NCBI RefSeq assembly: GCF_964204645.1
Contig: NC_134028.1
Location: 2,108,001-2,172,000 of the forward strand
Length of the DNA stretch: 64,000 nucleotides
DNA from: Tubulanus polymorphus
Taxonomy: Eukaryota; Nemertea; Palaeonemertea; Tubulaniformes; Tubulanidae
Direction: 5' to 3'
Shown: positions 25,301 to 61,912 of the stretch, one piece after another
How positions within the stretch are numbered: position 1 is the stretch's first letter
Layout: every line of letters begins with the position of its first letter
Notes under the pieces: model-generated
Database searches by the model: none
Told to the model about the DNA's origin: nothing
Seen by the model: only the letters and a program-made list of their open reading frames with translations
Program-made: the position numbers and the translations under genes

Positions 25301-25809
25301 CCGATCTTTTTCACTAGCTCTGCCAATGGCAAACACTTTTCATTCTTACACATGTGCTCTGTTTACCCCCCAAAAAACTGGAAAAATTACGAAAAGCTCA
25401 CGAAGATTCATTTTTGTGAGTCACCGCTATATTGACGTTTTCGCAGTTAGCAGTGTCAAGAAAAAGATACTAGGTGCAAATATGAAGATATTCTGCGATG
25501 GATAAAGAATGCCTTAAACGTGTCTCACGAATGGCACTTAAAAAATCTTAAATGCAAGAAAGAGAGCAAAAATCCAAAAACGACTTTTAAAGATAATTCA
25601 TGAGGCAAGATTTCCTGAGTATACTGAATCTAATGAGTTATTGTGTGTGTGTGGTTTAGAATACCAGGTACACTGGGAATTAGTGTTGATTCTTAGTATG
25701 TGCCTTTCTAAAAAGTTACCCTATTATCATTGGTGAGGTAGTCAGAATAGGATGCCTCTGAATTATATCATTCTATGATTTTTTCAGAACTGAATATTTT
25801 CATTTGCAG

Positions 25810-39700: not shown

Positions 39701-40890
39701 AAGTTCTTAAAACTTCATCAAATTCGAATTAGCAACACTTTATCAGCGTTAGAACATTTAACGAACAATATTCAAAAGAGCAAGTTTCAACCACACGTCA
39801 CATGGTTGATGGTTTATTCATTATTGGTACAAATAGCATTGTATAAGTAATCTCGGATCTCCTGCGTTTAATTGCCTTAAATCCTATTTTTTTGTGTAGC
39901 CCTTAAGATTCACCTGAGTGCCGAATGTAAAACTATACTGGATAAACTTGGTGGTTATACAGTGATTGAGCGCGGTCTCGTCAAAATGAAGGTATTTCAA
40001 ATGATGTTTCGAACTCTACTCACAAGCCGAATGTAATAATCTGCATTCACAAGTTATCGACATTTTAATTCGGTATTCAGGGCAAAGGTGAACTGATGAC
40101 GTATTGGTTACAAGACGAAGACGCCGAATATCGACTTCGACGTCTCGAATCATCGAAGAAAGTTCGCCCGATCGTCGAAACGACCGCCAGTACACCGACC
40201 GAGGCGCTTAAACGCGGTAAATTCCGTTCGTTTGGCGGACATCCAGCCAACGAGGTTTCCACGCCAAAAGTGAAACTTCGATCACAAAAAAGTGACAATC
40301 CTAACGATAAAAGTATTATGAGCATTATTCGAGAGATGGGTATGAACGATAAGAATGCAAAAGGTTTAAAACTATCGGACACCCAGCCGTCGCCCCGCGA
40401 CCGAACGTCGGCAAATTTCGGCCGGTCAGAAAATTCACCTACATCGTCCAATTGTGATAACGTATTTTCATGTGATAGTCCAATTCGTAGTCCTGGTCGG
40501 AATCCAGCGTTACATAGGCGCGGTTTCTCAGAGGACGATAGTAAACATTCTCAACGTAGTTTAAATTCTCTAGGGCCACAACGAACGAACACAGTCGATA
40601 TACCAGACGCGCGAGTGTCGCCAACAACCAGACCCACTTTCTTGGACGTGGCAGATCCATGCGAAACGGAGCGCCTCCTAGTGGATCACTCGGACGAACA
40701 ACAAAACAATGAACAATTTAGTTTAGTGACCCTGCATCCGGATGGTCGAAGCGTCATAGAGTCGAATGACGTCACCGTGGATGTTGACGGTTTCAAAAAT
40801 AACCATACGAGGGGAAACAATAATAAAAGTTCGCTTGTAAAACAAGCAACAATATCTGAGGGTCACACCCAATTCGCTGAACACGTTTAA
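25810..40890 (+). CDS. receptor-type guanylate cyclase, 5' part not found
   Basis: Single-pass membrane guanylate cyclase that converts GTP to cGMP when its extracellular domain is engaged. Exons: 25810-26116, 26667-26813, 26896-27140, 27913-28048, 28128-28273, 28401-28494, 28613-28688, 29310-29412, 29986-30141, 33169-33273, 34374-34445, 34596-34758, 34964-35113, 36052-36226, 36805-36945, 38503-38626, 39260-39503, 39600-39698, 39900-39991, 40081-40890. They sum to 3,585 nt (1,194 codons plus stop) with matching phases at every junction. Domains in visible residues: ligand-binding 1-358, membrane segment about 360-383, kinase homology 384-691, linker 692-738, cyclase 739-925, tail 926-1194. 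The first visible exon starts in phase 0 at a motif that in this family lies roughly 150 residues into the receptor, so the signal peptide and N-terminal lobe are missing. Closest family by eye is the invertebrate Gyc32E / natriuretic-peptide-receptor-like group; exact orthology is inference. Confidence 0.93.
27187..27525 (+). mobile_element. 339-bp Mutator-like non-autonomous transposon, copy 2
   Basis: Same element, inverted relative to copy 1 and exactly the same length. It is inserted in a guanylate cyclase intron. Flanks are ATGTTATAC / ATGTTACAC, a 9-bp target duplication with one mismatch. Confidence 0.8.
28613..28688 (+). CDS. guanylate cyclase: transmembrane exon
   Basis: A 76-nt exon encodes a strongly hydrophobic run ([17 protein letters not shown]) with no charged residue, followed by Arg-Asn-Trp-Arg across the next junction. 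This is the single membrane helix separating the ligand-binding domain from the cytoplasmic kinase-homology domain. The flanking acceptor (ttaatttcag) and donor (gtaagc) are standard. Confidence 0.92.
29310..36226 (+). CDS. guanylate cyclase: kinase-homology (pseudokinase) domain exons
   Basis: Seven exons (29310-29412, 29986-30141, 33169-33273, 34374-34445, 34596-34758, 34964-35113, 36052-36226) encode a protein-kinase-like regulatory domain. A beta-3 Lys is visible in [10 protein letters not shown], and [16 protein letters not shown] follows. The catalytic-loop equivalent reads [11 protein letters not shown], with no HRD aspartate, as expected of this family's catalytically inactive domain. 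DFG (VTDFGLLEL) and APE (LFWTAPEIM) are kept. [17 protein letters not shown] is the usual sub-domain IX. ATP binding and regulation of the cyclase are family knowledge. Confidence 0.92.
30142..33168. other. largest guanylate cyclase intron
   Basis: Intron of 3,027 bp between the kinase-homology exons ending EMKM and starting MRDLRHDN. Apart from the AAT microsatellite nothing is recognised. Confidence 0.85.
30530..30990 (+). repeat. AAT trinucleotide microsatellite region
   Basis: Long compound AAT/ATA runs at about 30,530-30,765 and 30,865-30,990, inside the 3-kb guanylate cyclase intron 30142-33168. Translations give only poly-Asn or poly-Leu. Confidence 0.95.
34535..34575 (+). repeat. tRNA-like B-box fragment in an intron
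   Basis: gcgggttcgagtcccgt forms a T-arm-like hairpin in the 150-bp intron 34446-34595. A similar word (taggttcgaatccta) sits at 37,077-37,092 in another intron. No A box was seen; tRNA-derived repeat debris is likely. Confidence 0.35.
36805..39991 (+). CDS. guanylate cyclase: dimerisation linker and catalytic domain exons
   Basis: Exon 36805-36945 encodes an amphipathic coiled-coil linker ([19 protein letters not shown]) ending in LLHRMLPK. Exons 38503-38626, 39260-39503, 39600-39698 and 39900-39991 encode the class III cyclase domain. Metal-binding Asp residues are present in YFSDICGFT and [14 protein letters not shown]. The guanine-specifying pair is intact: Glu in [10 protein letters not shown] and Cys in [17 protein letters not shown]. 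All active-site residues I can judge are present, so the enzyme is predicted to be active and GTP-specific. Confidence 0.94.
40081..40890 (+). CDS. guanylate cyclase: last exon with long C-terminal tail
   Basis: An 810-nt terminal exon starts at [10 protein letters not shown], the canonical end of the cyclase domain, and then runs about 250 further residues with no fold I recognise. It is rich in Ser, Thr, Pro, Asp, Asn and Arg (for example [20 protein letters not shown]), so probably disordered and possibly phosphorylated; that is inference. Stop is TAA at 40888-40890. A possible polyadenylation hexamer ATTAAA lies at 41182-41187. Tails of this length occur in some invertebrate receptor cyclases but are not conserved. 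Confidence 0.9.
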   Translation, partial: GKGELMTYWLQDEDAEYRLRRLESSKKVRPIVETTASTPTEALKRGKFRSFGGHPANEVSTPKVKLRSQKSDNPNDKSIMSIIREMGMNDKNAKGLKLSDTQPSPRDRTSANFGRSENSPTSSNCDNVFSCDSPIRSPGRNPALHRRGFSEDDSKHSQRSLNSLGPQRTNTVDIPDARVSPTTRPTFLDVADPCETERLLVDHSDEQQNNEQFSLVTLHPDGRSVIESNDVTVDVDGFKNNHTRGNNNKSSLVKQATISEGHTQFAEHV

Positions 40891-44711: not shown

Positions 44712-47700
44712 ATGATGTGGAAATTCCTTTGTTCTGTTGTTTTTGCCTTTTGCTGTGTTGAACTGATTTCATCACAAAACCCAACAAGTAACGTATCTTT
44801 ACGTGGATCATTTAAAATATATATAGAATATTTGATAATGAAATTTTGAAAAACATTGAAAGATTGATAATGAAAAATATTGAACTTTTTCTAACACAAC
44901 TCAACATTTCTTTGTCAGCATGTAAGAACACTGATGAAGGGACAGCATACCAGGGCACGAAGTCTACGACCATTTCTGGCAGAACTTGTGACTTTTGGTC
45001 AAACCATCCCGGTTCTTACTCGTTCCCAGCGGGTGAAACTGCGACGAGTGCTAAAAACTACTGTCGTAATCCCGGAGCAGTTCAGGATACTAGAGTAGTA
45101 ACTGGATTTTACACCAATCCCATGCGAGCGGGACCTTGGTGTTATACAACGGATGCGTATGTGTGGGATTATTGTGACATCCCAAAATGCGGTGATCCTC
45201 CTCGAGATCCTGGTGAGTAAAATGTATAAAGTATATAAATACATAAATATATTCATATTTTGGGAGCGACTAAGATTTCGTCTAAAAAGAACGAAATTAA
45301 CGAAATGATATTCTACAGGTGTTAACTGTGCCACCTACTTGAAAGGTTATTTCATTTATAATGGATCGCTTAGTGTCGCCAACACCGGTCAGAAGTGTGT
45401 TTATGCTCCTAGGCTGGAAGCATTTCGAACAACTATCGGGTATGTATCAGCGTGTAAAATTTTTTCAAATTATCATGAATCTGAATTAGTCTGAAGTTAA
45501 TCTTTTCCTGTCTTGTAGGGGATCAATACAGACGCAAATCAAACGAGGCGATCGATGTTATTTCTACAAAGGCATGGCGCAGAGGATGTTGGGGTGCTGG
45601 GTTTATGAAGGAGATACCACAACCGATGCAACCGCCTTTATGTTTAGACCTTGCACATTTCCAGTTTATTGTAGTAAGTTCGAAGCCTGTCGATCAGTTG
45701 CATCATCATAAGATAAAAACCCACTATGTACAAATTAAAAGAATTTTAAAATGGAGAATTAATTTATTGAAATAAATCTAAAATATGAAATACACGACTT
45801 AACGATCGCATCCTAGAGATCATCGTCAGGTGTGATTTGTACATAGTGGGTTTTTATCTTACTAACCGTTCACCACGTTTGAGTGTGGTTATTGTACGAG
45901 CTGCATTATGGACTCCAGAGTATTAGAGTCCATGGTTGCTTTTAACGCGTTTTTTAAACCGGTGAATTACAGAAGTTTTCTTTCTCCATTTATTTCAGAC
46001 AAATACGTCCCTCCAGCAAATCCTGTAGGAGGTAACATTGGCTCTATTTTTTAGTATACTTGATATATTCATATTATTCAATCGATGCGATTAATGAATG
46101 TGCATATTGAGGTGAATTGAACGTGATTCCTGTACATTAGTGCGTGTGTGTCATTGCATAACAGAATGCTGTTAATTTTCATTTCGAAGATTCATCATAA
46201 AATGCCTGACACCGTTTATTTTACCTCTTAGGCGATCCATATATTCTTACTATTCAATTGATTTAATCCAATTTCAGGTACTGCATGCCAACCCGCTTGT
46301 TCGGATCGTCAAAGCTGCGTCAATAATATTTGTCAGTGCAAAACAGGATTAGTAACCAGTGGAACGACGTGTTCATGTCCCTCGGTAAATCTTTACTGGG
46401 ACACAACTACGTTAACTTGCCAGCGTAAGTGCAACAAACTCATAATGTCCATCTGCTTGAAATTTTACCATATTCACCGCATAGAAATTAATTTGCCATT
46501 GATTAAACATCAGAATAATTTCATGTTGCATCAATTATTTCTACGTTTAAAGCTGCGTGTCAAGGTCGTTGCAAAGATAGGGAGATATGCGTCAATGGAA
46601 ATACTTGTGAGTGTGTAACTGGATTCAATAGATCTCCAAGCGGAATTTGTGAACGTGAGTTCATTCGAAGATACTTTTTCATATTCAACTGCATCGAAAT
46701 GTGACCAAAACCCTCAAATAACGCAATAAGATTATTGTTGTTTTTCATTTAACAGCTCCTCCTACAACATGTCAGAAAATATGTAGAGCGTATGGCGATC
46801 CGCATTTCCTATCATTCGATGGGTTGAGTTTCAGTTTTCATGGCTCTTGCACATACATACTAGCAGAATACAATGTACCAGGATCAACGTGTCGGTTCAG
46901 AATCTCATTGAGAAGTGTTAGAGCTACACCGAGTGTTGCTGCTACCTTTTCAACCGTTCTCATGTTTGAATCGCTCACACCAGGACAAACATTTTCGACT
47001 CGATTCAACCGAATTTCTAAGGAATTAATGGTAAGCTTCTGTTATCCCCGATTTTATCATTATCTTATGATGGCAAAATCTGAGAAGTCAATCTCGTTTA
47101 ATTGGATGGCTTAATGAAGACGTCTGCTAAAATATGAATCGATTTAGTTATTAATGAACTGTTGAATGCTATTACTGAAAGGAAGTATGTATTACGATTC
47201 TATTTGATTATACTGTGGCTTATTGCAAAATCGATAGCACATGTGATTTCGGATTCGACACATATTTTCACTCATTTTCAGATCAATAATAAATTGTCTT
47301 CAAGTCCATATGTTGGATTACCCGGTGATTACCAGGTTGGTTATGAATTGGGAATGTTTTTTGTGAGAAGCGCTCAATGCAGTATTGATGTCACATTCAG
47401 AGATTATTCACTGATCATACAGCTCGGAAAAGCAACTGTAAATACCTACGCAGGTATTACATTACGAATGTTCCTTATTCTAGACACTAGAAAATCGTTC
47501 CACAGTTCTGACTATATTTCATTTTGAACCTCTCAAAGTGAACGGAACTTTAAATCATTCTGTGTCCTTTAAAGTAACACGTCAGTGGGATAATGGAAAG
47601 TAATCATTTTCAATCCGTACACAGGTAATCTGATTGGTCTATGCGGTAACTGTGACGGAAATAAAACTAACGACCTCGATAATTGTTCGCAAGGCACGAT

Positions 47701-50700
47701 GACGATCGGTTCTATAGGAAGAACGACATTAAGGGATTCCTGTTTAGCGAGCGATGCAGAATTATCATTAAGGCCCAGGTATTGTGAACGAGTGATTATC
47801 ATAAAGATAATGGCACATTAAAGCACTCCATATAAATTTGTAAATAAGTAATTAAATTTCTTGCTATATTCCAACTCATACCTTTCAGTTGCGTAAAACC
47901 GACACCTCCAGTTACCTGCGAAAAAAGTATCCTTGATGCATTGGGATCGGACAAACAAAAATGCGCTCTGTTGAAGTATGTTCTAACCAAATATATTCTG
48001 CTTGTTCTACACATTATATAGCAAGTGATTTGAAAATGATTCTGTTAATTTAAGGTTATCACCGGGCCCATTCGCCCAGTGTTTGGCTAGTGGCGTGGTG
48101 GACGTTGCGCCATTTTTCGAATCATGTAAAGCCGACGCGTGTTACACACAAGCAGATATAAACAAACAACAAGAAATAATTTGCGCGAGTCTAAGCACAT
48201 TTGAGGTGAAATGTAGAGAGGCTGGGTTTACAACTGATGTTTGGAGATCAGCAACTTTCTGTCGTTAGTATCCAACATAAATGTACATGTGTTATGGTTA
48301 ATGTAAAAATACATGCGATAAGATCGTCCTTCTACAACAAACATGATAGAAAGATAATCTTATTTCCCTAGGAGCAACTTTTTCAATATTTGTTATTTCT
48401 GTTACAGCACCGCCTGTATGCCCACAAAATTCACATTACAACCACAGTGCTGTTACCCCTCGACCAACATGCACACAACCGTTCCAATACCATGCAGCAA
48501 ACGCCGTCAAATTACCATTGTGTATTTGCGACGATGGGTACATACTTTCTGGACAAATATGTATTCTCAAATCAAAATGTGGTATGTATCAATTTCAAAA
48601 AGGGACAAAATATACATTGTTTCTATACTCACAGATTCTTTTATATAAACGTCAAGAATTACGTAATTCAACATTACAGATGTATGTGCGAAGTCTCAGT
48701 GTAAAAATGGTGGAATTTGTGAACCACAAAACAGTGATTACAGATGTATCTGTCAAAAAGACTATACAGGACAGTACTGTGAAAACGGTAAGGTTATCAG
48801 TCTGATTGTATTGTTAGTGCAATTAGTTCACATAGACGAAACGTGGTTTTTCATTTTAGATTTTCTAATGAAATATGGTAAAAATTTGATTTTCTTATGA
48901 ACTGTTTTCAATTTCTAAGAAAAAGGAAATTGAAACCATTATACGTTTTTTCACAGGTCCTGGTAATTTATGTGATCCAAATCCATGCAATGGTGGGGTG
49001 TGCCAGATTGATCCATATGGTGAAGTAGTTTGCCAATGTCCAGAGTCCCTTACTGGAGAAAGGTGTACAATGCCAGTACCTGTTGGTAAGTATTGAAATA
49101 CCACTTTCCCACTTTTAGAATAACTGAGAAAATCTTTGTACAGGTTTTATTCTATCCTTTAGATCCCTGTTCGTCAAACCCATGTAAAAATGGTCTGTGT
49201 CAAATTCTGCTGGTAAATGGCGTTCCGAACACATACACTTGCAGCTGCGATCCGGATTATACTGGGGATCAATGTCAATGCGGCCCTAATGAACCTTACA
49301 ACGCAAATACTGGTACATGTGTCAGTAAGTATACCAGTATTTTAATGAGGAAATTGAAAATTCTCATCCATACAGATTTATCTGTGTAGCACAAGCCATT
49401 ACATAACAGATTGATGTTAATTTGATTCAGAAGATTCATCATAAAATGCTTGACACCGTTTGTTCAATATTTTAGGTAATCCATGCTCAGCAAACCCATG
49501 TGGTACAAATGGACAATGTGTTCAATCTGCAGCAGGTTACACTTGTAACTGTAATACTGGTTTTACTGGTGATCAATGTCAATGCGACCCTAACAAGCCT
49601 TACGACGCGAACTCTGGTACATGTGTCAGTAAGTATACCAGTATCTAAACAAAATAATTGATAAGAAAAATAAAATTATCAGGAATGGCCACAACATTAT
49701 GGCTATTCATGTGAAGTTTACTAAGATTTATTATGAAACGTCTGAAATCGTTTGTTTAATGTTTTAGGTAATCCATGCTTGGCAAACCCATGTGGTACAA
49801 ATGGACAATGTGTTCAATCTGCAGCAGGTTACACTTGTAACTGTAATGCTGGTTTTACTGGTGATCAATGTCAATGTGGCCCTAATACACCTTACGACGC
49901 TAACTCTGGTACATGTGTCAGTAAGTATACCAGTATCTGAACAAAATAATTGATGAGAAAAAATTCCATCCACACATATTTTCCTGTTAATACCGCTAAC
50001 AAGCCATTGCGTAGCAGATTGCTGTTAATTCGAGTTGGAAGATTTGTTCTAAAGTGCTTGACACCGTTTCTTCAATATTTTAGGTAATCCATGCTCGGCA
50101 AACCCATGTGGTACCAATGGACAATGTGTTCAATCTGGAGCAGGTTACACGTGTAACTGTAATGCTGGTTTTACCGGTGATCAATGTCAATGTGGCCCTA
50201 ATGAACCTTACGACGCAAACACTCAAGCATGCAAATTAGGCGAGTCATATTCTGACCGACAAATATTCATATGTAAAACATTTGCAAAATAAGAAATATT
50301 CTCCTGACCTCATTAATTTCTTACAGTTTGTAATAGCTGCACAGATCGACAAGTGCTCGATGCTAGTGGAATCTGTCAATGTGTATCAGGAACAACATGG
50401 AACGGATCGCAGTGCGCGTGTGATTCCAATCGCCTCTGGGACCCCGTAACGAAACAATGTTTTGGTAAAATTTTATATATCTTTGGAAGAGAGTTCAAGT
50501 ATTCGAATAACCATAAAAGCGATAACACTAACAACTTCATTTTCTAATGAGTAAATAGAGTTTATTGAGACTAACGTTTTCGGGATCATATCCCCCTCAT
50601 CAGGTGAAATACAAGTAAATGAAATGTTTAAACCAAAAGTTTTATATCATATACAACATAAGTTACAAAATTACAAGTGCTAAATTCAAAGCTACATAAA

Positions 50701-51373
50701 AACCAAGTATCTAATTACAAGCTAGTTATTTTAATACATTTAAGATAAAGGATGAGCCGTTTTGGGAAAATAGTTGATTTAAAGAGGGTCGTTGCGCTTT
50801 GATAAATAGGGCCTCCCTAGTCGGGATCAGATGAGCCTTTGTTTAGAATTTTGAATTTGTTATCACTGAATTCCTGATAACAAGAGTGACAAATTGCGAG
50901 ATGTTGTCCAATCGCAGAAGTCTTTGATCTGATCAAAGGCTCATCTGATCTCGACTGCAAAAATTAGGGAGGCCCTGTTTACTCATTAGAAAATGAGGTT
51001 TTTAATTCTATATATATTTGGAATGATCTTTGCAACATTTTAAGCTCTACCAAAGCCGCAATACCTTCTAATTAGCTATGCCTATCGTAACTTTAGATGA
51101 TATTGTTAATCATTGGCTATTACTCATGAAGATATTTCTTCTTTTCAGCGGATGTTGCCAGTGCAGGTAATTCTTAAGAAATCCATTTCAAAATTATGAT
51201 TTGGTCGAAATAATCTAATAAATGCAAATTGTTTTCATTGTGAAATATCAATCCTTTCAGGATGGTGCAGGCTATTCTTTACGAATCCATGTAGCCCAGG
51301 ATTATGCGTTTCCAATGGTCGAGGATATTACTGCATTTGTCCCAAAGGGCACACTATCACTGGATGCCGGTAG
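44712..51373 (+). CDS. copy A: secreted kringle / vWD-C8-TIL / EGF protein
   Basis: Predicted secreted modular protein of 1,042 residues, function unknown. Exons: 44712-44787, 44919-45212, 45319-45439, 45519-45673, 45999-46031, 46278-46424, 46553-46654, 46756-47030, 47282-47453, 47625-47778, 47889-47975, 48055-48263, 48408-48581, 48680-48787, 48957-49085, 49163-49324, 49476-49628, 49768-49920, 50084-50239, 50327-50464, 51149-51166, 51261-51373. The sum is 3,129 nt, an exact multiple of three, with all phases matching. The start follows a splice acceptor two bases upstream and opens a signal peptide ([20 protein letters not shown]). Order: signal 1-20, kringle 26-118, divergent kringle about 124-215, Cys-rich modules 226-309, vWD 310-509, C8 about 539-608, TIL 609-666, EGF-like modules 667-1042. 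No membrane segment after the signal peptide. The splice after 50239 needs a GC donor. vWD-C8-TIL is typical of mucins, zonadhesins and adhesive or matrix proteins, so an extracellular coat, mucus or adhesion role is inference. Confidence 0.9.
44919..45673 (+). CDS. copy A: two kringle domains
   Basis: Exon 44919-45212 encodes a classical kringle: Cys at the start, [40 protein letters not shown], giving the six-cysteine pattern. Exons 45319-45439 and 45519-45673 together encode a second unit with the same six-Cys order ([40 protein letters not shown]). It lacks the NYCRNP and PWCYT consensus, so I call it a divergent kringle; this is moderately sure. Kringles usually bind proteins or carbohydrate. 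A short Pro-rich linker exon (45999-46031) follows. Confidence 0.85.
45711..45859. mobile_element. 149-bp MITE-like insertion in a copy A intron
   Basis: Perfect 25-bp terminal inverted repeats (agataaaaacccactatgta... at 45711-45735 and its complement at 45835-45859), with TA on both sides. Absent from the equivalent intron of copy B. Its right half holds a hammerhead-like core on the minus strand. Confidence 0.7.
45792..45834 (-). ncRNA. hammerhead-like motif inside a MITE
   Basis: On the minus strand: ACAC-CTGACGA, a stem II region, a GAtc (decayed GAAA) box, GTTAA, then GTC-GTGT. The ACAC/GTGT halves pair as stem I around the GTC cleavage triplet. The decayed GAAA box means this copy is probably inactive. 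Confidence 0.45.
46278..46654 (+). CDS. copy A: two small Cys-rich (EGF/TIL-like) modules
   Basis: Exons 46278-46424 and 46553-46654 encode two short modules with motifs [18 protein letters not shown] and [18 protein letters not shown]. The spacing C-x(5)-C-x(4)-C-x-C resembles truncated EGF or the Cys-rich linkers that precede vWD domains. The module [18 protein letters not shown] near the C-terminus (exon 50327-50464) has the same style, so this module type flanks the vWD and EGF regions. All boundaries are phase 1. Confidence 0.8.
46756..48581 (+). CDS. copy A: vWD, C8 and TIL domains
   Basis: Exons 46756-47030, 47282-47453 and 47625-47778 form the vWD domain: start motif [11 protein letters not shown] then [12 protein letters not shown], end motif [17 protein letters not shown]. 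Exons 47889-47975 and 48055-48263 form the C8 domain ([16 protein letters not shown] and VWRSATFC). Exon 48408-48581 is TIL-like ([28 protein letters not shown]). vWD-C8-TIL is the standard order in gel-forming mucins, zonadhesin and similar proteins. The intron 47454-47624 is assigned because only this choice keeps frame in both copies; see findings. Confidence 0.88.
48680..51373 (+). CDS. copy A: EGF-like repeat region
   Basis: One EGF module per exon, all phase 1-1: 48680-48787 ([16 protein letters not shown]), 48957-49085 ([11 protein letters not shown]), 49163-49324, then three near-identical modules at 49476-49628, 49768-49920 and 50084-50239 ([28 protein letters not shown]). A Cys-rich module (50327-50464), an 18-nt microexon (51149-51166, ADVASA) and a final EGF-like exon (51261-51373, [18 protein letters not shown]) end the protein at TAG 51371-51373. 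The symmetrical phases permit gain or loss of single modules without frameshift. No clear calcium-binding signature (D-x-D/N-E) was seen. Confidence 0.88.
50538..50995. mobile_element. 458-bp inverted-repeat insertion in a copy A intron
   Basis: Ends cattttctaatgagtaaata and its complement (50975-50995), about 21 bp with one mismatch. A second, inner foldback lies at 50808-50976 (gatcagatgagcctttg against its complement). A hammerhead-like core is on the minus strand at 50569-50603. Missing from the equivalent copy B intron near 61,545. Confidence 0.65.
50569..50603 (-). ncRNA. hammerhead-like motif in the 458-bp insertion
   Basis: On the minus strand: CTGATGA, a GGG-loop-CCC stem II, GAAAAC, GTTA, GTC. 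This is very close to the short-stem-III hammerhead layout known from Penelope-like elements, with one additional A after GAAA and poor stem I pairing. Confidence 0.5.
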
Positions 51374-51584
51374 AACTCCAACCATCGAATGGTGAGGTTT
51401 ACAAGTTTAATCATCTGTTTCGTTGATATTTGTTTTTTTTACTTATGCGTCTCCTTTCTTTCTAGACTATGAGAAATGCGTTCGCTTCTTGTTTTGTTCG
51501 TGATGAATAATGTGACATCAGAAAAGACTAATATCCAACAATTTCTTCTCATGTCATAAAATTAATTGTATTTGATTCATTACT

Positions 51585-51590
51585 AATAAA
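51585..51590 (+). other. candidate polyadenylation signal, copy A
   Basis: AATAAA about 210 nt after the stop codon, conserved in copy B at 62123-62128. A related stretch with the same hexamer context also occurs upstream of copy A near 42,617. Confidence 0.45.
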
Positions 51591-51907
51591 ACATAATTAC
51601 GCAAACAATGCAGAGTGTCTAAAATTCGTCCATGGTGCATTATATAGAGTTTACCCCCAATTCATCGATAACGATTCATCCCTTCTCCGGAATTCTTGTT
51701 GCTACTCGGAAGAATCTATTCATTGGTTCTGCAAGATCTGAGACACAACAAGAAAATTAGTAGTCCTATATATGGAACCAGACCTAGAGGTAAACGCGGT
51801 ACTAAGCTATAAGACAACTGCTTTTCATCACGGAACTGGTAGATGAACAGACTCCGATAATCTCAGGGCGCTAGTCCAGTATACGACATTATAGTGCGTA
51901 TGTAGAG

Positions 51908-52203
51908 TTAAGGCCCGGACACACTGGGCGATTTAGTCGGCCGACGAAATCGCCTCTGTCGCCAGCGACAGAATCGCCCAGTGTGTCCGGGTACGGCGAT
52001 CAGTCGCCTCGAGCACCGCATTAACCAGCCAATCACGGCTCTTCGATTTATTAAAGGTGGCGCTAGCAGCTGGTCATTTCAAAATAAGCGGCGCTGTTCG
52101 TCGATTTCGTCGGCCGACGAAATCGCCCAGTGTGTCCGGGTCTGTCGGCGATCAAATCGGTTATCAAATCGGCGGCGATTCGTCCAGTGTGTCCGCGGCT
52201 TTA
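51908..52203. mobile_element. MITE-like element downstream of copy A
   Basis: Inverted ends read ggcccggacacactgggcga and, complemented, gccgcggacacactggacga. The same cgaaatcgcccagtgtgtcc word recurs inside. It is not found after copy B, where similarity stops at 62,393. Type not assigned. Confidence 0.55.
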
Positions 52204-53589
52204 CACTGCGTTATTCGATCAGTGTTCACTGGAGTTGACCGTTGACAGTCGACACAAAAAACGACGAGAACAGATCGCAACCTGTCAACCCGTCAACGAG
52301 AACGAGAAGTACCTATGACAGTTTTTTTCAACCCCTTTAACTACCATTTGTGTTCATAATCTTCATTGTCTCTCATAAATCCATTGCGTATTATGAAGTT
52401 GCGGATTATTTGGATGATATTGGTATTTCCAAACACGGCCCAAGTCCAATGTACGGCATTATATTGCAACGTGTAGAGATATTTTTGGAGTAACGCACTA
52501 TGATGTCGTATACTGGATTTAGCGACGGTATTGGAAACATTTATTGTGATTCTGTATCATTATGTTGCACTTTTTTTGCCAACCTTTTTGCAAAATTCTG
52601 TTTTAATCTGGAATATTTACATTTCCGTCATTTCTGTAAATAAATTACCTCTTATCAAAGAATCGCACAATCTTCTTAATTTTGCTGCAAATTTAATTCG
52701 GCGTTTTATTCTCACGAAGCAAGAGGTATCATAATATCATGTTTTTCTATCACCGGTTTGCCTATGACTATAACGACTACTTGAATATACAATATCAATT
52801 GTATTCCACTAAAATGAATTCAATCATAACATCTCGTCAATTTCTCTTTCAACAATCTACAAATTTATTAAACTTATCTATTCGTTGAGGGTCCAGTGTT
52901 CCATTAAATGAAACAAGAATCAATACGTTCTCATGGAAAAACGCCGATTTTACTTGATATCCAAATAAAAATTTTGGAATCGCGTACATACATTTAGAAT
53001 ATCACATTCGCCACGGACGTTTACAGTACAGATAGTAAAGAAAGCATTCAAATAATCATATGAAACTAATTAGTACAAATATCATCAATCATTTGCTGCC
53101 CAGTGTGCCTCTCATTCGCGTCATTTTTCATAGAAAATGCGTAATTTAGTAAATCGTGTATTGCTCCAGCTTGCTGGGCGTCATTATCTTGAACTGGAGG
53201 CATAGAGGAAGACTCAACAGATCGCCTATCTTGGTCATAATAATACGAAATAAAATTAAGTTGTGACTAACTGCTGATCCACTACCAGAATAAAATTACC
53301 AGAGTTTATGTGGTGTTATTTAATTATGGGGCAACATAGAGACGTGTTTGTTTGTTATATAATTACTTTGTTTATGTAATCGTAATTAATATCTGTCTGA
53401 CAGTTCTGACCGCGTCACAGTTTCTACGTCCTGGTATGTCTGAGACCAAGGGTAGAATATGGGGTGAGTTTAATTTAAAAAAAGATTTGTTTAGGATAGA
53501 AAGTCTGGGTCGAAGTTAGGCTCGACAGTCGGATTCGGAGCTCCTTTTGCTTCGTGAAATCTACGGGCCGAATATTGAGTCGGTGCTCG

Positions 53590-54720
53590 AATCAATAAAT
53601 ACAGATCGTCTGTCAATCGTGGAGTCACTATTTACTATATTCTGGATATTTCGATGAAGTTATCGGAACAACGCATGGGACGTGTAAGAAAGCGAAGCCG
53701 ACCTACCTGCTCTTCTCTTTCAATTGCTCTATTTCAACGCTTTCGATAGAACATAAAGTCTAAAAGCTGAATTATGAAAGAAACACGTACAGTCGAACCT
53801 CGCTAGTACGATGCCAGTGGGAAATAAAAAGTCATCGTAGTAACCGAATTTCGTATTAACCATTCAATAAAAACAATTCCATATTACCTCAACATACTAA
53901 CAAACAACCTTTAAGGAAATTTATTGCACGTGTGGTCAGCGCCACCACGCAATAGATAGCTTAGACGACACATCAATAATGCGGATGAGTTCAACTTTAA
54001 AAAAAAAGTGGTAACTCATTATGGACCATCACACTAAGCGTGTTTATTTACTATAGAAATGAATAGGAGATCGTAGATTTTATATCGTATTAACGTGATC
54101 GGACATATTTTCATAGGTAAAGCCGGGAACTCTTAAATTTCTCGTATTACTGAGGTTTTCGTTGTAAGCCGAATCCGTACAAACGAGGTTCGACTGTACC
54201 ACTTTACGTAATGCGTATTTTCAGTATCGTTAAAATGTGCTAAAGGCTGAGTAATTGGTAGGCTACTCGACTAATTAGCGATATATAGCGATATCAATAC
54301 GAAGATTTTGTATGATATTCCATCCTATCACCGACACTACTATAACGTAAGGAGATTCAATAAGACGAATCGGATCAATAAATACAGATCGTCTATCAAT
54401 CATGGAGGCACTATTTACTATATTCTGGATATTTGGGTGAAGTTATCGGAACGACGGATCGACGTATAAGAGAGCGAAGCCGACCTACCTGCTCTTCTCT
54501 TTAAATTGCTCTATTTCAATTACTTTCAATTGAGCATCATATCTAAAAAAATGAATTACGAAAGAAACGTAAAGGGGAGCTATGCACTAAATGTGCTAAA
54601 GGCTGAGTAATTAGTAGGCTACTCGATTAGCTATATATAGCGATATTAATACGAAGATTTATTATATGATATTACATCCTATCACCGACACTACTATAAC
54701 GTAAGGAGATTCAAAACCAG
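53590..54720 (+). repeat. local tandem duplication in the copy B upstream region
   Basis: The stretch with gtcactatttactatattct and aatgtgctaaaggctgagta occurs twice before copy B (about 53,590-53,770 plus 54,230-54,360, and 54,380-54,560 plus 54,590-54,720) but once before copy A (about 43,660-43,980). One of the two repeats was then split by the pogo-like element. Confidence 0.65.
53790..54196. mobile_element. pogo/Tigger-like MITE upstream of copy B
   Basis: 407 bp with ends CAGTCGAACCTCG and CGAGGTTCGACTG, flanked by TA on both sides (53788-53789, 54197-54198). CAGT-GAACCTC termini and TA duplications are typical of pogo/Tigger MITEs (family knowledge). The matching site before copy A reads through uninterrupted (gaaacataaagg). 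No transposase is encoded. Confidence 0.75.
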
Positions 54721-55011
54721 CCCAGTAATCGTTTTGCATTCAACAAAATTCGATTAACCCCTTCATTAATTGTTAAAACAACAGCAAGAACCTTCATTTA
54801 CACAACTATCCAGCCAAAGAAGATTGTGGATTCGATTCGTATCGATTTGGCTGTTTAAGTTGATTCCTTAATCGATGGCTCTTAACGCGTATATGAGAGA
54901 AGTAATAATATAGAAATAATAATATCATATAAGTGGTGAAATAGTTATTTGAAAACTCTCCAGATTATCATTAATATGACAGGTGTTAAACCAAAACCAC
55001 ATCGAATATTA

Positions 55012-55074
55012 TATATAAACAGGCTTTGAGAGATGTAAAATCGTCTCATTCTTTCAACGTGAACGATTTGAAAA
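55012..55074 (+). promoter_or_regulatory. predicted core promoter and 5' UTR exon, copy B
   Basis: TATATAAA at 55012-55019 is followed by a donor GTAAGT at 55075. The acceptor ends at 55442, just before ATG 55445. Same layout as copy A, so both duplicates appear to carry their own promoter. Confidence 0.5.
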
Positions 55075-55444
55075 GTAAGTTCAAACAATTATCATTTTTC
55101 ATCTTAGGTATCTCACGTTCGATCTTATCACTCGAATTGGAAATGATAACGGCGGTAGTATTAGATTTTCACTCCTACCTTCCTGGTTACGAGGCATGTA
55201 TCACTCAAACGTACCGGTATAGAACAGAAATCAAGAACTCTGGTTTTTTTTAAGAAGAAAGCCTTACTTTTTCGATGAACCGAATGCAAAATAAATACAA
55301 GTAGATTTAAGTGCACTATATATGTATCTAGTAAACTCAGCTATACGGCTAACAAACTATCTTATTTTATAGAATACTCACCAATATTCTCACTCATGAA
55401 ACTGAAAGTTATACACTGAAATAGGATCAATTTTCTTTATAGAA

Positions 55445-58400
55445 ATGATGTGGAAATTCCTTTGTTCTGTTGTTTTTGCCTTTTGCTGTGTTGAACTGAT
55501 TTCATCACAAAACCCAACAAGTAACGTATCTTTATGTGAAACATTTCAAGTACATATAGAATATTTGATAATGAAATACAAAAGATTGAACTTTTTCTTT
55601 CACAAATCTTGATAACATTTCTTTGTCAGCATGTAAGAACACTGATGAAGGGACAGCATACCAGGGCACGAAGTCTACGACCTTTTCTGGCAGAACTTGT
55701 GACTTTTGGTCAAACCATCCCGGTTCTTACTCGTTCCCAGCGGGTGAAACGGCGACGAGTGCTCGAAACTACTGTCGTAATCCCGGAGCAGTTCAGGATA
55801 CCAGAAAAGTAGTCGGAAAGTACACCAATCCCATGCGAGCGGGACCTTGGTGTTATACAACTGATGCGTATGTGTGGGATTATTGTGACATCCCAAAATG
55901 CGGTGAAGCTCCTCGAGATCCTGGTGAGTAAATGTATTAATACAAAAATACATTCGTATTTTGGGAGCGACTAAAATTTCGCCTAAAAAGAATGCAACTA
56001 ACACAATGATATTCTACAGGTGTTAACTGTCACATATACCTCGCCCCGTACAAGACCTACACATATAATGGATCGCTTAGTGTCGCCAACACCGGTCAGA
56101 AATGTGTCTATGCTCCTAGGCTGGAAGCATTTCGACCAGCTATGGGGTATGTATCAGTATGCACTGATTTCTCATGATATCATAAATCTGAATTGGCCTG
56201 AAGTTTTATACTTGTCCTGTCTTGTAGGAGAGCAATAAAGACGGAAATCAAACGAGGCGATCGATGTTACTTCTACAAAAGCCAGAGGCAGAGGATGATG
56301 GGATGCTGGGTTTATGAAGGAGATACCGCAACCGATGTAGTCGCGTTTAAATTTAGACCTTGCACATTTCCAGTTAGTTGTCGTAAGTTCGATGGTTACT
56401 AGCCTATCGATCAGAGGCATATAACACGATTAGGTTCAACGCTTAATATTTACTTGCAAGAAAAAAACATGGAATACGCGAATTGATATACGATTTCCGA
56501 TATCCTCTGTCGCTATGAGGTTGCGTATGGAAATCTTCGAATATCTTTGATTTTAACGGAATGAATTAAATCTAGAAAAGCTACTACCGGTTAATATACT
56601 GGGACCGGTTTTATAGACTGGTATCAACTTCAACCCGGGGGCTAACTTAATTCATTGTCAATCGAGTTAACCGTCGGGTTAAAGATAATTCCAGTCTATA
56701 AAACCGGGCCCAGAATTTTACTATCTCCATTATTTCAGGTAAATACGTCCCTCCAACTCCAACACCTCGACCAAATCCTGGAGGAGGTAACATTGGCTCT
56801 ATTTTTTATTTTATCTACTTGATATATTTCAATATTGAATAGATTTATGAATGTGCATATTGAGGTGCATATTTCCCATCCAAACATATTTCCCTATGCT
56901 CAAGCGCATCTGTGTCATTGCATAACAGATTGCTGTTAATTTTCATTTAGAAGATTCATCATAAAATGCCTGACACCGTTTATTTTACCTCTTAGGCGAT
57001 CCATATATTCTTACTATTCAATTGATTTAATCCAATTTCAGGTACTGGATGCCAACCCGCTTGCTCGGATCGTCAAAGCTGCGTCAATAATATTTGTCAG
57101 TGCAAAACAGGATTAGTAACCAGTGGAACGACGTGTTTATGTCCCTCGGTAAATCTTTACTGGGACACAACTACGTTAACTTGCCAGCGTAAGTGCAACA
57201 AACTCATAATGTCCATCTGCTTGAAATTTTACCACATTCACCGCATAGAAATTAATTTGCCATTGATTAAACATCAGAATAATTTCATGTTGCATCAATT
57301 ATTTCTACGTTTAAAGCTGCGTGTCAAGGTCGTTGCAAAGATAGGGAGATATGCGTGAATGGAAATACTTGTGAGTGTGTAACTGGATTCAATAGATCTC
57401 CAAGCGGAATCTGTGAACGTGAGTTCATACGAAGATACTGTTTCAAATTCAACTGCATCGAAATGTCACATAAACCTCTTAAATAACGCAATAAGATTAT
57501 TGTTGTTTTTCATTTTACAGCTCCTCCTACAACATGTCAGAAAATATGTAGAGCGTATGGCGATCCGCATTTCCTATCATTCGATGGGTTGCGTTTCAGT
57601 TTTCATGGCTCTTGCACATATATACTAGCAGAATACAATGTACCAGGATCAACCTGTCGGTTCAGAATCTCATTGAGAAGTGTTAGAGCTACACCGAGTG
57701 CTGCTGTTACCTTTTCAACCGTTCTCATGTTTGAATCGCTCACACCAGGACAAACATTTTCGACTCGATTCAACCGAATTTCTAAGGAATTAATGGTAAG
57801 CTTCTGTTATCGCCGATTTTATCATTATCTTTTGATGGCAAAATCTGAGAAGTGAATCTCGTTTAATTGGATGGCTTAATGAAGACGTCTGCTAAAATAT
57901 TAATCGATTTAGTTATTGTTGAACTATTGAATGCTATTACTGAAAGGAAGTATGTATTACGATTCTATTTGATTATACTGTGGCTTATTGCAAAATCGAT
58001 AGCACATGTGATTTCGGATTCGACACATATTTTCACTCATTTTCAGATCAATAATAAATTGTCTTCAAGTCCATATGTTGGATTACCCGGTGATTACCAG
58101 GTTGGTTATGAATTGGGAATGTTTTTTGTGAGAAGTGCTCAATGCAGTATTGATGTCACACTCAGATATTATTCACTGATCATACAGCTCGGAAAAGCAA
58201 CTGTAAATACCTACGCAGGTATTACATTACGAATGTTCCTTATTCTAGACACTAGAAAATCGTTCCACAGTTCTGACTATATTTCATTTTGAACCTCTCA
58301 AAGTGAACGGAACTTTAAATCATTCTGTGTCCTTTAAAGTAACATGTCAGTGGGATAATGGAAAGTAATCATTTTCAATCCGTACACTTAGGTAATCTGA

Positions 58401-61400
58401 TTGGTCTATGCGGTAACTGTGACGGAAATAAAACTAACGACCTCGATAATTGTTCACAAGGCACGAAGACGATCGGTTCTATAGGAAGAACGACATTAAG
58501 GGATTCCTGTTTAGCGAGCGATGCAGAATTATCATTAAGGCGCAGGTATTGTGAACGAGTGATTATCATAAAGATAATGGCACATTAAAGCACTCCATAT
58601 AAATTTGTAAATAAGTAATTAAATTTTTTGCTATATTCCAACTCATACATTTCAGTTGCGTAAAACCGACACCTCCAGTTACCTGCGAAAAAAGTATCCT
58701 TGATGCATTGGGATCGGACAAACAAAAATGCGCTCTGTTGAAGTATGTTCTAACCAAATATATTTTTCTTGTTCTACACATTATATAGCAAGTGATTTGA
58801 AAATAATTCTGTTAATTTAAGGTTATCACCGGGCCCATTCGCCCAGTGTTTGGCTAGTGGCGTGGTGGACGTTGCGCCATTTTTCGAATCATGTAAAGCC
58901 GACGCGTGTTACACACAAGCAGATATAAACAAACAACAAGAAATAATTTGCGCGAGTCTTAGCACATTTGAGGTGAAATGTAGAAAGGCTGGGTTTACAA
59001 CTGATGTTTGGAGATCAGCAACTTTCTGTCGTTAGTATCCAACATAAATGTACATGTGTTATGATTTATGTAAAAATACATGCGATAAGACCGTCCTTCT
59101 ACAACAAACATGATAGATAGAAATCATATTTCCCTAGGACCAACTTTTTCAATATTTGTTATTTCTGTTACAGCACCACCTGTATGCCCACAAAATTCAC
59201 ATTACGACCATAATGCTGTTACCCCTCGACCAACATGCACACAACCGTTCCAATACCATGCAGCAAACGCCGTCAAATTACCATCGTGTATTTGCGACGA
59301 TGGGTACATGCTTTCTGGACAAATATGTATTCTCAAATCAAAATGTGGTATGTATCAATTTCAAAAAGGGACAAAAATATATATTGTTTCTATACTTACA
59401 GATTCTTTTATATAAACGTCAATAATTACTTAATTCAACATTACAGATGTATGTGCGAAGTCTCAGTGTAAAAATGGTGGAATTTGTGAACCACAGAACA
59501 GTGGTTACAGATGTATCTGTCAAAAAGACTATACAGGACAGTACTGTGAAAACGGTAAGGTTATCAGTCTGATTTTATTATTAGTGCAATTAGTTCATAT
59601 AGACGAAACGTGGTTAAGAATTTTCATTTTAGATTTTCTAATAAAATATGGTAAAAATTTGATTTTCTTTATGAACTGTTTTCAATTTCTAAGAAAAAGG
59701 AAATTGAAACCATGATACGTTTTTTCACAGGTCCTGGTAATTTGTGTGATCCAAATCCATGCAATGGTGGGGTGTGCCAGATTGATCCATATGGTGAAGT
59801 AGTTTGCCAATGTCCAGAGTCCCTTACTGGAGAAAGATGTACGATGCCAGTACCTGTTGGTAAGTAATGAAATAGCACTTGCCCACTTTTAGAATAACTA
59901 AGAAAATCATCATACAGGTTTTATTCTTTAGATCCCTGTTCGCCAAACCCTTGTAAAAATGGTTTGTGCACAATCCTGCTGGTAAATGGCGTTCCGAACA
60001 CATACATTTGCAGCTGCGATCCGGATTATACTGGGGATCAATGTCAATGCGGCCCTAATGAAACCTACAACGCAAACACTGGTACATGTGTCAGTAAGTA
60101 TACCAGTATCTGAAAAAGGAAATTGAAAATTTTCATCCATACAAATTTATTTGTGCACTAACTTAGTAGCGTTTATTAGCCATTGCATAATAGATTGCTG
60201 TTTATTTGATTCAGGAGTATTATCATAAAATGCTTGACACCGTTTGTTCAATATTTAAGGTAATCCATGCTCGACAAACCCATGTGGCTCCAATGGACAA
60301 TGTGTTCAATCTGGAGCAGGTTACACTTGTAACTGTAATGCTGGTTTTACCGGTGATCAATGTCAATGTGGCCCTAATACACCTTACAATGCTAACACCC
60401 GTACATGTGTCAGTAAGTATACCGATATCTGAATAAAGTAATTGATAAGAAAAAAGAAATATCAGGAATGGCCACAACATCATGGCTATCGCTGATAATT
60501 GCACTAAGATTTAACATGAAATGTCTGAAATCATTTGTTTTACATTTTAGGTAATCCATGCTCTTCAAACCCATGTGGTACCAATGGACAATGTGTTCAA
60601 TCTGCAGCAGGTTACACTTGTAACTGTAATGCGGGTTTTACTGGTGATCAATGTCAATGTGGCCCTAATACACCTTACAACGCAAACACTCGTACATGTG
60701 TCAGTAAGTATACCAGTATCTGAATGAAATAATTGATGAGAAAATATTCCATGCACACATATTTTCCTGTTAATACCGCTAACAAGCCATTACATAACAG
60801 ATTGATGTTAATTTGATTCAGAAGATTCATCATAAAATGCTTGACACCGTTTGTTCAATATTTTAGGTAATCCATGCTCAGCAAACCCATGTGGCTCCAA
60901 TGGACAATGTGTTCAATCTGGAGCAGGTTACACTTGTAACTGTAATGCTGGTTTTACTGGTGATCAATGTCAATGTGGCCCTAACACACCTTACAATGCT
61001 AACACTCGTGCATGTGTCAGTAAGTATACCAGTATCTGAACAAAATAATTGATAAGAAAAAAAATTATCAGGAATGGCCACAACATCATGGCTATCGCTG
61101 TTAATTTCACAAAGATTTGATATGAAATGTCTGAAATTGTTTGTTTTACTTTTTAGGTAATCCATGCTCGGCTAACCCATGTGGTACCAATGGACAATGT
61201 GTTCAATCTGGAGCAGGTTATACTTGTAACTGTAATGCGGGTTTTACCGGTGATCAATGTCAATGTGGCCCTAATGAACCTTACGACGCTAACACTCGCG
61301 CATGCAAATCAGGTGAATCATTTTCTGTCCGACAAATATTCATATGTTAAACATTTGCAAAATAAGAAATATTTTCCTAACCTCATTGAGTTCTTACAGT

Positions 61401-61912
61401 TTGTAACAGCTGCACAGATCGTCAAGTGCTCGATGCTAGTGGAATTTGTCAATGTGTATCAGGAACAACATGGAACGGATCGCAGTGCGTCTGTGATTCC
61501 AATCGCCTCTGGGACCCCGTAACGAAAAAATGCTTTGGTAAAATTTGATCTATATTTGAAATGATTCTTGGCAGCATTTAAAACCCTACCAAAACCGCAA
61601 TACCTTCTAATTAGCTATGCCTATCAGAACTTTAGATGATACTGTTAATCATTGGCTATTACTAACGAAGATATTTCTTCTTTTTAGCGCATGTTGCTAG
61701 TGCAGGTAATTCTTAAGAAATCCATTTCAAAATTATGATTTGGTCGAAATAATCTAATAAATGCAAATTGTTTTCATTGTGAAATATCAATCCTTTCAGG
61801 ATGGTGCAGGCTATTCTTTACGAATCCATGTAGCCCAGGATTATGCGTTTCCAATGGTCGAGGATATTACTGCATTTGTCCCAATGGGCACACTATCACT
61901 GGATGCCGGTAG
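55445..61912 (+). CDS. copy B: secreted kringle / vWD-C8-TIL / EGF protein
   Basis: Tandem paralogue of the gene at 44,712, predicted 1,100 residues, same domain order. Exons: 55445-55520, 55630-55923, 56020-56146, 56228-56382, 56739-56786, 57042-57188, 57317-57418, 57521-57795, 58047-58218, 58392-58545, 58656-58742, 58822-59030, 59174-59347, 59447-59554, 59731-59859, 59932-60093, 60260-60412, 60551-60703, 60867-61019, 61157-61312, 61400-61537, 61688-61705, 61800-61912. The sum is 3,303 nt, a multiple of three. Exon lengths match copy A except for +6 nt in the second kringle, +15 nt in the Pro-rich linker, and one additional 153-nt EGF exon. The signal peptide is identical. All donors are GT, including 61313 where copy A has GC. 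Nothing breaks the frame, so both copies look functional. Confidence 0.9.
55630..56382 (+). CDS. copy B: two kringle domains
   Basis: Exon 55630-55923 is a six-Cys kringle ([31 protein letters not shown]). Exons 56020-56146 and 56228-56382 form the divergent second kringle. Relative to copy A, the first dozen residues of the second kringle are replaced (CHIYLAPYKTYTYNG against [13 protein letters not shown]), and there are clustered substitutions near Q-R-Q-R-M-M-G and in D-V-V-A-F-K-F, while the Cys framework is kept. The linker exon 56739-56786 is extended by five residues rich in Pro and Thr. Confidence 0.85.
56599..56713. mobile_element. 115-bp inverted-repeat element in a copy B intron
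   Basis: Terminal inverted repeats of 23 bp with one mismatch (ctgggaccggttttatagac / gtctataaaaccgggcccag). It sits in the same intron as the copy A insertion at 45,711 but is a different element, so the two copies were hit independently. Confidence 0.65.
57521..59347 (+). CDS. copy B: vWD, C8 and TIL domains
   Basis: Exons 57521-57795, 58047-58218 and 58392-58545 encode vWD ([18 protein letters not shown] to [12 protein letters not shown]). Exons 58656-58742 and 58822-59030 encode C8, and 59174-59347 encodes TIL. Exon lengths equal those of copy A. The intron 58219-58391 is 2 nt longer than its counterpart because its end reads cacttag instead of cacag. Both are legal acceptors, and the length change is harmless only if this stretch is an intron. 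Confidence 0.88.
59447..61912 (+). CDS. copy B: EGF-like repeat region with one more module
   Basis: EGF exons: 59447-59554, 59731-59859, 59932-60093, then four near-identical modules 60260-60412, 60551-60703, 60867-61019 and 61157-61312 (copy A has three), then 61400-61537 (Cys-rich), the 18-nt microexon 61688-61705 and the last exon 61800-61912 ending in TAG. All boundaries are phase 1. The introns between the near-identical modules alternate between two sequence types, which shows how the array grew. Confidence 0.88.

Follow-up and report, generated by a model that had tools for sequence, protein, structure and literature searches.

Two neighboring genes of Tubulanus polymorphus predicted to encode secreted proteins with a kringle, a vWD-C8-TIL core, and EGF modules

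The window analyzed here, a 64,000-nucleotide stretch of the Tubulanus polymorphus genome (C4:2108001-2172000, on contig C4), contains two neighboring genes, A and B, whose predicted proteins combine a kringle with a vWD-C8-TIL core and a run of EGF modules. A preliminary description of the stretch had placed kringle and vWD in one architecture; judged by sequence, there is good support for their presence in one predicted protein, as opposed to separate kringle and vWD genes, because five gene models with the same N-terminal start (A to E), at two unlinked places, carry it. The preferred reading takes A and B, both intact, as belonging to a small family of secreted structural proteins rich in disulfides, and the chances of this reading as a whole appear even. 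A function of A to E as secreted vWD-C8-TIL-EGF proteins of a coat, mucus, or adhesive, in a new architectural variant, is about evenly balanced between true and false. The family has a new architecture but falls within an already known kind of secreted protein; it is not a system of a new kind. No protein with both a kringle and vWD-C8-TIL was found by full-text searches of the open-licence PMC literature, judged from titles, beginnings of abstracts, and some passages, which fits, within this range of papers, the earlier remark that the combination is not a described family. Within the available passages, the kringle and C8/TIL belong to different proteins in PMC9643190, and the kringle appears only in a reference of PMC3878727.

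Gene A (positions 44712 to 51373) comprises 22 exons encoding 1042 residues, and gene B (55445 to 61912) comprises 23 exons encoding 1100 residues, with exons joined by hand according to AG/GT sites and phase. The interval 44712-61912 extends exactly from the ATG of A to the stop codon of B. In both genes, the frame is uninterrupted by stops from a signal-peptide-like start to the stop codon, and all intron borders are GT-AG apart from a single GC-AG intron after exon 19 of A, in agreement with the two intact, single-frame genes of 22 and 23 exons in the preliminary description. The signal peptide proposed there is recognizable by inspection, with the top hydropathy window of A at residue 1, and no strongly hydrophobic stretch follows it in A or B. 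The module order is a kringle (K1), a kringle-like module (K'), two small Cys-rich modules, vWD, C8, TIL, and EGFs; the original order holds apart from the two small Cys-rich modules between K' and vWD, which had been overlooked. The count of up to seven EGF modules is right for A, whereas B has eight through one extra EGF exon. Likewise, the two tandem genes are real but understate the family, as A and B are neighbors inside a four-gene array (A to D) with a fifth relative, E, elsewhere. The duplicated unit holding A and B has a period of ∼10.7 kb and includes the 5' flank.

Over 1042 aligned residues, the proteins of A and B share 93.2% identity, and the ratio of nonsynonymous to synonymous substitution (dN/dS) is 0.38 by the Nei-Gojobori method. 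Exons 1 to 16 show 95.7% identity and introns 1 to 15 show 87.3% in ungapped columns; the intron value is 93.5% without intron 4, which differs through inserted repeats. The contrast between exons and introns is small once intron 4 is removed, which makes dN/dS the better sign of constraint. Intron 4 of A contains a perfect 27-nucleotide inverted repeat (45709-45861) with arms 99 nucleotides apart, and intron 4 of B contains a different inverted repeat (80%; 56592-56720); both may be remnants of small transposons. In the long intron 20 of A, a 37-nucleotide inverted repeat (84%; 50522-51011) encloses another and is not listed in gene B.

Pfam scans of the whole proteins place vWD, C8, and EGF above their cutoffs in A, B, and C, with seven EGF stretches in A and eight in B (scores are given in Table 1). 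TIL remains below its cutoff in whole A, B, and C, but passes it in A when scanned alone and, at 29.0 bits, in the piece of E that was scanned. The vWD-C8-TIL core named in the preliminary description is therefore borne out for vWD and C8 in the whole proteins and for TIL of A scanned by itself. An NCBIfam scan, with a library irrelevant to animal genes, gave no match. In the family cores, vWD, C8, and TIL stand in the order of a D assembly, and the presence of one core per gene, or two in C, does not correspond to the chain of D assemblies in a gel-forming mucin. By eye, no long Pro/Thr/Ser-rich (PTS) region is present in A to D, and Pro/Thr linkers are found in E. Cysteine makes up 10.0 to 10.7% of residues in A to D and 6.1% in E.

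FCGBP is the best PDB match to the core of A (E value of 1e-118 for the whole chain, summed over seven stretches), followed by MUC5AC and MUC2, with VWF lower. For chains matched in a single stretch, the scores are 67.4 bits for FCGBP (8r0t_B), 57.4 for MUC2 (7qcl), 53.8 for MUC5B (8oer_C), and 45.2 for MUC5AC (8qsp). The core of E again finds FCGBP first. The motif GDPH stands at the vWD start in six of six cores of A to E, both cores of C included. According to passages of PMC10880436, the Asp-Pro bond of GDPH is cut in FCGBP and the cut stabilizes the domain; mutation of the Asp or the His blocks cleavage, and mutation of a Gln affects it in part. The FCGBP chain 8r0t_C starts at the Pro of GDPH and is aligned there with A (query 13 to chain 1) and, in a weak 14-bit stretch, with E (query 15 to chain 1). 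A vWD-like reading at ∼47500 to 47600, between exons 9 and 10 of A, is out of frame with its neighbors and was excluded, since the matches of A, B, C, and E already cover vWD profile positions 1 to 150 of 156 without it.

K1 exceeds the cutoff of PF00051 (34.3 bits) in A and B when scanned alone and contains six Cys residues, so the six-Cys kringle of the preliminary description is upheld, although it is unlisted in the whole-protein Pfam scan (hmmscan) of both genes. This miss can be attributed to the HMMER filters acting on a protein with 10% Cys. In a six-frame search of the genome, the K1 modules of A and B reach 41.8 and 40.7 bits, respectively, and their relatives among PDB sequences are the kringles of plasminogen, HGF, and ROR. 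The Asp of the RNPD motif and a second acidic residue form part of the lysine pocket of kringles. All six family kringles of genes A to E carry RNPG, with Gly instead of Asp after RNP, and have a span of 27 to 28 residues between the third and fourth Cys, compared to 12 to 13 in all 25 other kringles of the genome used for comparison. Asp follows RNP in 22 of these 25 distinct kringles, 11 of which also have the second acid; the set consists of 20 regions among the better-scoring matches and the triple on contig C9, with one duplicate dropped, and its origin in high-scoring matches makes it lean toward the canonical form. RNPG and the long span together render plasminogen-type lysine binding by the family kringles unlikely. 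No trypsin-like domain was found by Pfam in A, B, C, or the scanned pieces of E, and no protease domain of any kind in A, B, or C.

The second module, K', is probably a diverged kringle. Six Cys residues are present in five of five copies, with Cys segment lengths of 24, 28, 14, 20, and 7 in A and of 28, 24, 13, 17, and 6 in E, next to 23, 28, 13, 13, and 6 in one kringle of the same genome. Alignment by hhalign of five K' rows with 26 kringle rows of this genome, two of them identical, gives a local score of 22.8 over 28 columns, confined to the first half, at a low probability of 22.6%. The score exceeds those of Cys-fixed shuffles in 200 of 200 local and 199 of 200 global comparisons; one of the six Cys residues of E lies off its column in this alignment, and the shuffle test may be weaker than possible. 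The K' modules of A, B, and E have no Pfam match above the cutoff. In the PDB, K' of E has two matches at an E value of ≤10, and that the better one is the unrelated WAS protein (0.046), ahead of the kringle 1kdu, listed as plasminogen activator (0.47), counts against a kringle origin. The genome search with the same copy yields nine matches at an E value of ≤10, five of which are K' exons belonging to the family. The best match outside the family (C2:19564053; E value of 0.0134) has two internal stops and is not a Pfam kringle, which also speaks against K' as a kringle, and another (C2:5525503; E value of 0.21) lies in the same frame as a Pfam kringle exon. K' of A finds eight matches, all within the C4 array, and neither the A nor the E copy has a match outside the family at an E value of ≤0.01. 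The divergent second kringle of the preliminary description is better called a kringle-like module in its own right.

The genome searched (267.8 Mb in 77 contigs) contains at least 125 kringle and at least 108 vWD exon matches, with four kringles and five vWD starts in the C4 array, where genes C and D follow A and B. Gene C (L001:864-9756) has 30 exons and 1511 residues counted from the ATG, comprising a single K1-K' followed by two complete vWD-C8-TIL-EGF modules. Gene D (L002), with 21 exons found by similarity to A, encodes 992 residues. Gene E (L003) is located on contig C7, unlinked to the array, and has 19 exons encoding 1273 residues in the order K1, K', Pro/Thr linker, kringle, Pro/Thr linker, EGF, PAN-like, EGF, vWD, C8, TIL, EGF, EGF, and a C-terminal domain. 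Its two kringles score 50.8 and 49.6 bits; its PAN-like module, recognized by inspection only, and its C-terminal domain have no Pfam match.

The two modules of C differ in their closest relatives. At exon 6, the first module shows 100% identity with D and 89.4% with A, whereas the second shows 95.2% with A and 89.4% with D; the following intron agrees (first module, 92.1 to D and 53.5 to A; second module, 88.5 to A and 55.4 to D). The two modules are each other's closest relatives in exons 8, 9, 11 to 14, and 16 and in introns 8 to 11, 14, and 15. This does not hold for exons 7 and 10 or for introns 7, 12, and 13, and exon 15 of the first module shows a tie with B. This pattern fits unequal exchange between paralogues followed by homogenization or duplication, with several histories possible.

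The C-terminal domain of E has 12 further genome matches at an E value of ≤0.01, three of which lie on C9, ∼1.4 to 3.2 kb from C8 exons. Kringle-free genes at C9:11679501-11699500 (L030 and L031), as judged from their reading frames, show the order EGFs, vWD, C8, TIL, EGF, EGF, Pro/Thr/Ser linker (a long repeat in some copies), and E-type C-terminal domain. Seven C8 exon matches occur at C9:11681905-11744278, two of them within the former region. In a vWD-C8-TIL tree of ten rows, one branch parts the six kringle-family rows from three kringle-free rows, with a support of 93/92, which is below the starred level, and with presence in 95% of 200 bootstrap trees; a row from a three-kringle locus on C9 is uncounted in this split, and the branches are long, with a program warning of false joins. 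The split is consistent with a single gain of the kringle head.

The three-kringle locus (C9:16319001-16339000; L005, L028, and L029; minus strand) is probably a second, differently ordered kringle/vWD gene, with vWD, C8, TIL, Cys-rich exons, a three-kringle exon, a Pro/Thr linker, C8, and TIL. Most of its exons can be given phase-1 sites, and two small exons are without a fitting donor nearby. At C7:2580001-2600000, two kringles precede a vWD-C8-TIL gene; they were rejected as a further fusion because a signal-peptide-like start, seen by inspection, sits between the pair and the gene. This vWD-C8-TIL gene (L026-L027; minus strand) has a long exon of repeats, which we take to be antistasin-like, and acidic GDSD repeats.

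Comparison with published systems, which relies on passages of the cited papers, places the flatworm adhesion protein 1 (Mlig-ap1 and Tmed-ap1) close to A and B, with an N-terminal domain, vWD-C8-TIL, and a variable EGF run, as well as a signal peptide in Tmed-ap1 (PMC8621496, PMC9229212). Compared by description only, its head is a C-type lectin instead of a kringle, and Tmed-ap1 adds vWC and 19 EGFs (PMC8621496, PMC9229212); Pfam finds no lectin domain in A, B, C, or the scanned pieces of E. Sea-star Sfp1, an autocatalytically cleaved secreted adhesive, shares vWD-C8-TIL parts, and the passages describing it, the only basis of comparison, do not mention a kringle (PMC8621496). Kringles occur in the flatworm adhesive organ in Tmed-krg1, a six-kringle anchor-cell protein; in contrast to the family, it is predicted to be membrane bound, is proposed to bind lysine, and has no vWD-C8-TIL in the passages on it (PMC9229212); the family kringles of A to E lack the Asp of the lysine site. 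The limpet protein P-vulgata_14 is a secreted invertebrate adhesive-mucus protein with a kringle, whose listed domains are an astacin-type peptidase, ApeC, CUB, sushi, C-type lectin-like, and ShKT, with vWD unlisted (PMC7333891). FCGBP and the gel-forming mucins, the closest solved sequence relatives, share the core and GDPH, but FCGBP has 13 vWD domains (PMC10880436) compared to one core here or two in gene C. A to E differ further from both in their kringles and EGF tail, and A to D in the missing long PTS region. We know of no kringle in spiggin, the nest glue of the stickleback. Spiggin genes form a tandem array of secreted, mucin-derived adhesive genes (PMC4989455) and, unlike A to E, originate from vertebrate MUC19.

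The domain make-up, the FCGBP and mucin relatives, GDPH, and the missing Asp of the lysine site suggest a secreted, disulfide-rich, and probably self-cleaved structural protein. In the proposed mechanism, the vWD core would, like that of FCGBP, be cut at the Asp-Pro bond and stay joined through disulfides, the EGF tail would act as a spacer of variable length, and the kringle and K' would form a protein-binding head that leaves a plasminogen-type lysine site unused. The proteins may then serve as building or crosslinking components of an extracellular coat, mucus, or adhesive, comparable to flatworm adhesion protein 1, sea-star Sfp1, and vertebrate FCGBP. The relatives of the core lean toward such a role, and passages of PMC8621496 and PMC9229212 describe vWD-C8-TIL as frequent among aquatic adhesive proteins. 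Several points weigh against it. The Gln that helps cleavage in D10 of FCGBP, placed by the numbering given in PMC10880436, is replaced by His in the five cores of A to D and by Met in E. For the core of E, VWF (70 bits) is level with MUC5B (70 bits). The same literature, in part, argues that vWD-C8-TIL is not the surface-binding part (PMC8621496), finds vWD domains in signaling molecules and receptors (PMC10880436), and counts the arthropod clotting hemolectin among TIL-vWD-C8 proteins (PMC9643190); the last two observations mean that the core alone fixes no function. The broad range given in the preliminary description, a coat, mucus, adhesive, or immune role, appears reasonable.

A more specific form of the glue or coat reading is tentative, less likely than not, and would make A to E an undescribed family in which the kringle and the family-only K' replace the lectin head of ap1, the kringle is repurposed from lysine binding, and the array makes new forms by exchange of exons and modules, as in the EGF number of A and B and the double core of C. 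It is rather improbable that the proteins are humoral immune or clotting factors, whose kringle and K' bind microbial or wound surfaces and whose vWD core multimerizes as in VWF and hemolectin. The vWD-C8 parts of A and E match VWF too, VWD, TIL, and C8 are common to hemolectin and VWF in passages of PMC9643190, and a length-variable tandem array suits fast-changing defense genes; against this, FCGBP and the mucins outscore VWF for A. In addition, dN/dS is 0.38 to 0.44 in the five gene pairs computed and gives no sign of diversifying selection, though such selection may be masked in an average over the whole gene. A reproductive or egg-coat protein similar to zonadhesin, which has vWD-C8-TIL chains, would also agree with the tandem duplication and is a somewhat fainter prospect. 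Very unlikely is a role alongside kringle proteases or growth factors, as their cofactor or pseudo-factor, exerted through lysine-binding kringles: the PDB kringle relatives would suit it, but the Gly after RNP and the long Cys span of all six family kringles, together with the missing protease domain in A, B, and C, oppose it. That a kringle gene and an adjoining vWD gene were merged by the model, as the kringle missed in the whole-protein scan might suggest, is scarcely credible in view of the frame and phase kept across introns in A to D and the repeated fusion in gene E.

Proteins with vWD-C8-TIL-EGF recur in animal glues and mucus with differing heads. If borne out, the kringle head of A to E would indicate that the head is interchangeable and would bear on whether kringles bind partners in a secretion without the lysine pocket. 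The four-gene array of length variants offers a ready-made series in which EGF number can be set against material properties.

Table 1. Modules of genes A and B by exon, with positions in the window
Feature	Positions	Strand	Evidence
A exon 1: start codon and signal peptide	44712..44787	+	Inspection; highest-scoring hydropathy window (19 residues) begins at residue 1
A exon 2: kringle K1, six Cys, RNPG replacing RNPD	44919..45212	+	Pfam, 50.5 bits; PDB kringles
A exons 3-4: K' kringle-like module	45319..45673 (45319-45439, 45519-45673)	+	Six Cys; hhalign
A exon 5: short Pro-containing linker	45999..46031	+	
A exons 6-7: two small Cys-rich (EB/EGF-like) modules	46278..46654	+	Pfam matches below cutoff only
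A exons 8-10: vWD with GDPH at residue 323	46756..47778	+	Pfam, 60.1 bits
A exons 11-12: C8	47889..48263	+	Pfam, 50.0 bits
A exon 13: TIL	48408..48581	+	19.5 bits in whole protein, 27.5 alone; cutoff, 24.5
A exons 14-19: six EGF modules, one phase 1-1 exon each	48680..50239	+	Pfam; repeat family D1
A exon 20: small Cys-rich module	50327..50464	+	
A exons 21-22: 18-nucleotide exon and last EGF with stop	51149..51373	+	
B exon 1: start codon and signal peptide	55445..55520	+	Inspection
B exon 2: kringle	55630..55923	+	Pfam, 48.3 bits
B exons 3-4: K' module	56020..56382	+	Six Cys; hhalign
B exon 5: Pro-rich linker	56739..56786	+	
B exons 6-7: two small Cys-rich modules	57042..57418	+	
B exons 8-10: vWD with GDPH	57521..58545	+	Pfam, 62.3 bits
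B exons 11-12: C8	58656..59030	+	Pfam, 49.9 bits
B exon 13: TIL	59174..59347	+	18.2 bits in whole protein, below cutoff of 24.5
B exons 14-20: seven EGF modules	59447..61312	+	Pfam
B exons 21-23: Cys-rich module, 18-nucleotide exon, and last EGF with stop	61400..61912	+	

Upstream of the array, the open reading frame at 40069-40887 is without a Pfam match, and the neighboring gene contains an ANF-receptor ligand-binding region at 25762-26157 on the plus strand (46.4 bits). This gene is perhaps a receptor guanylate cyclase, and its tail may be the open reading frame at 40069-40887.

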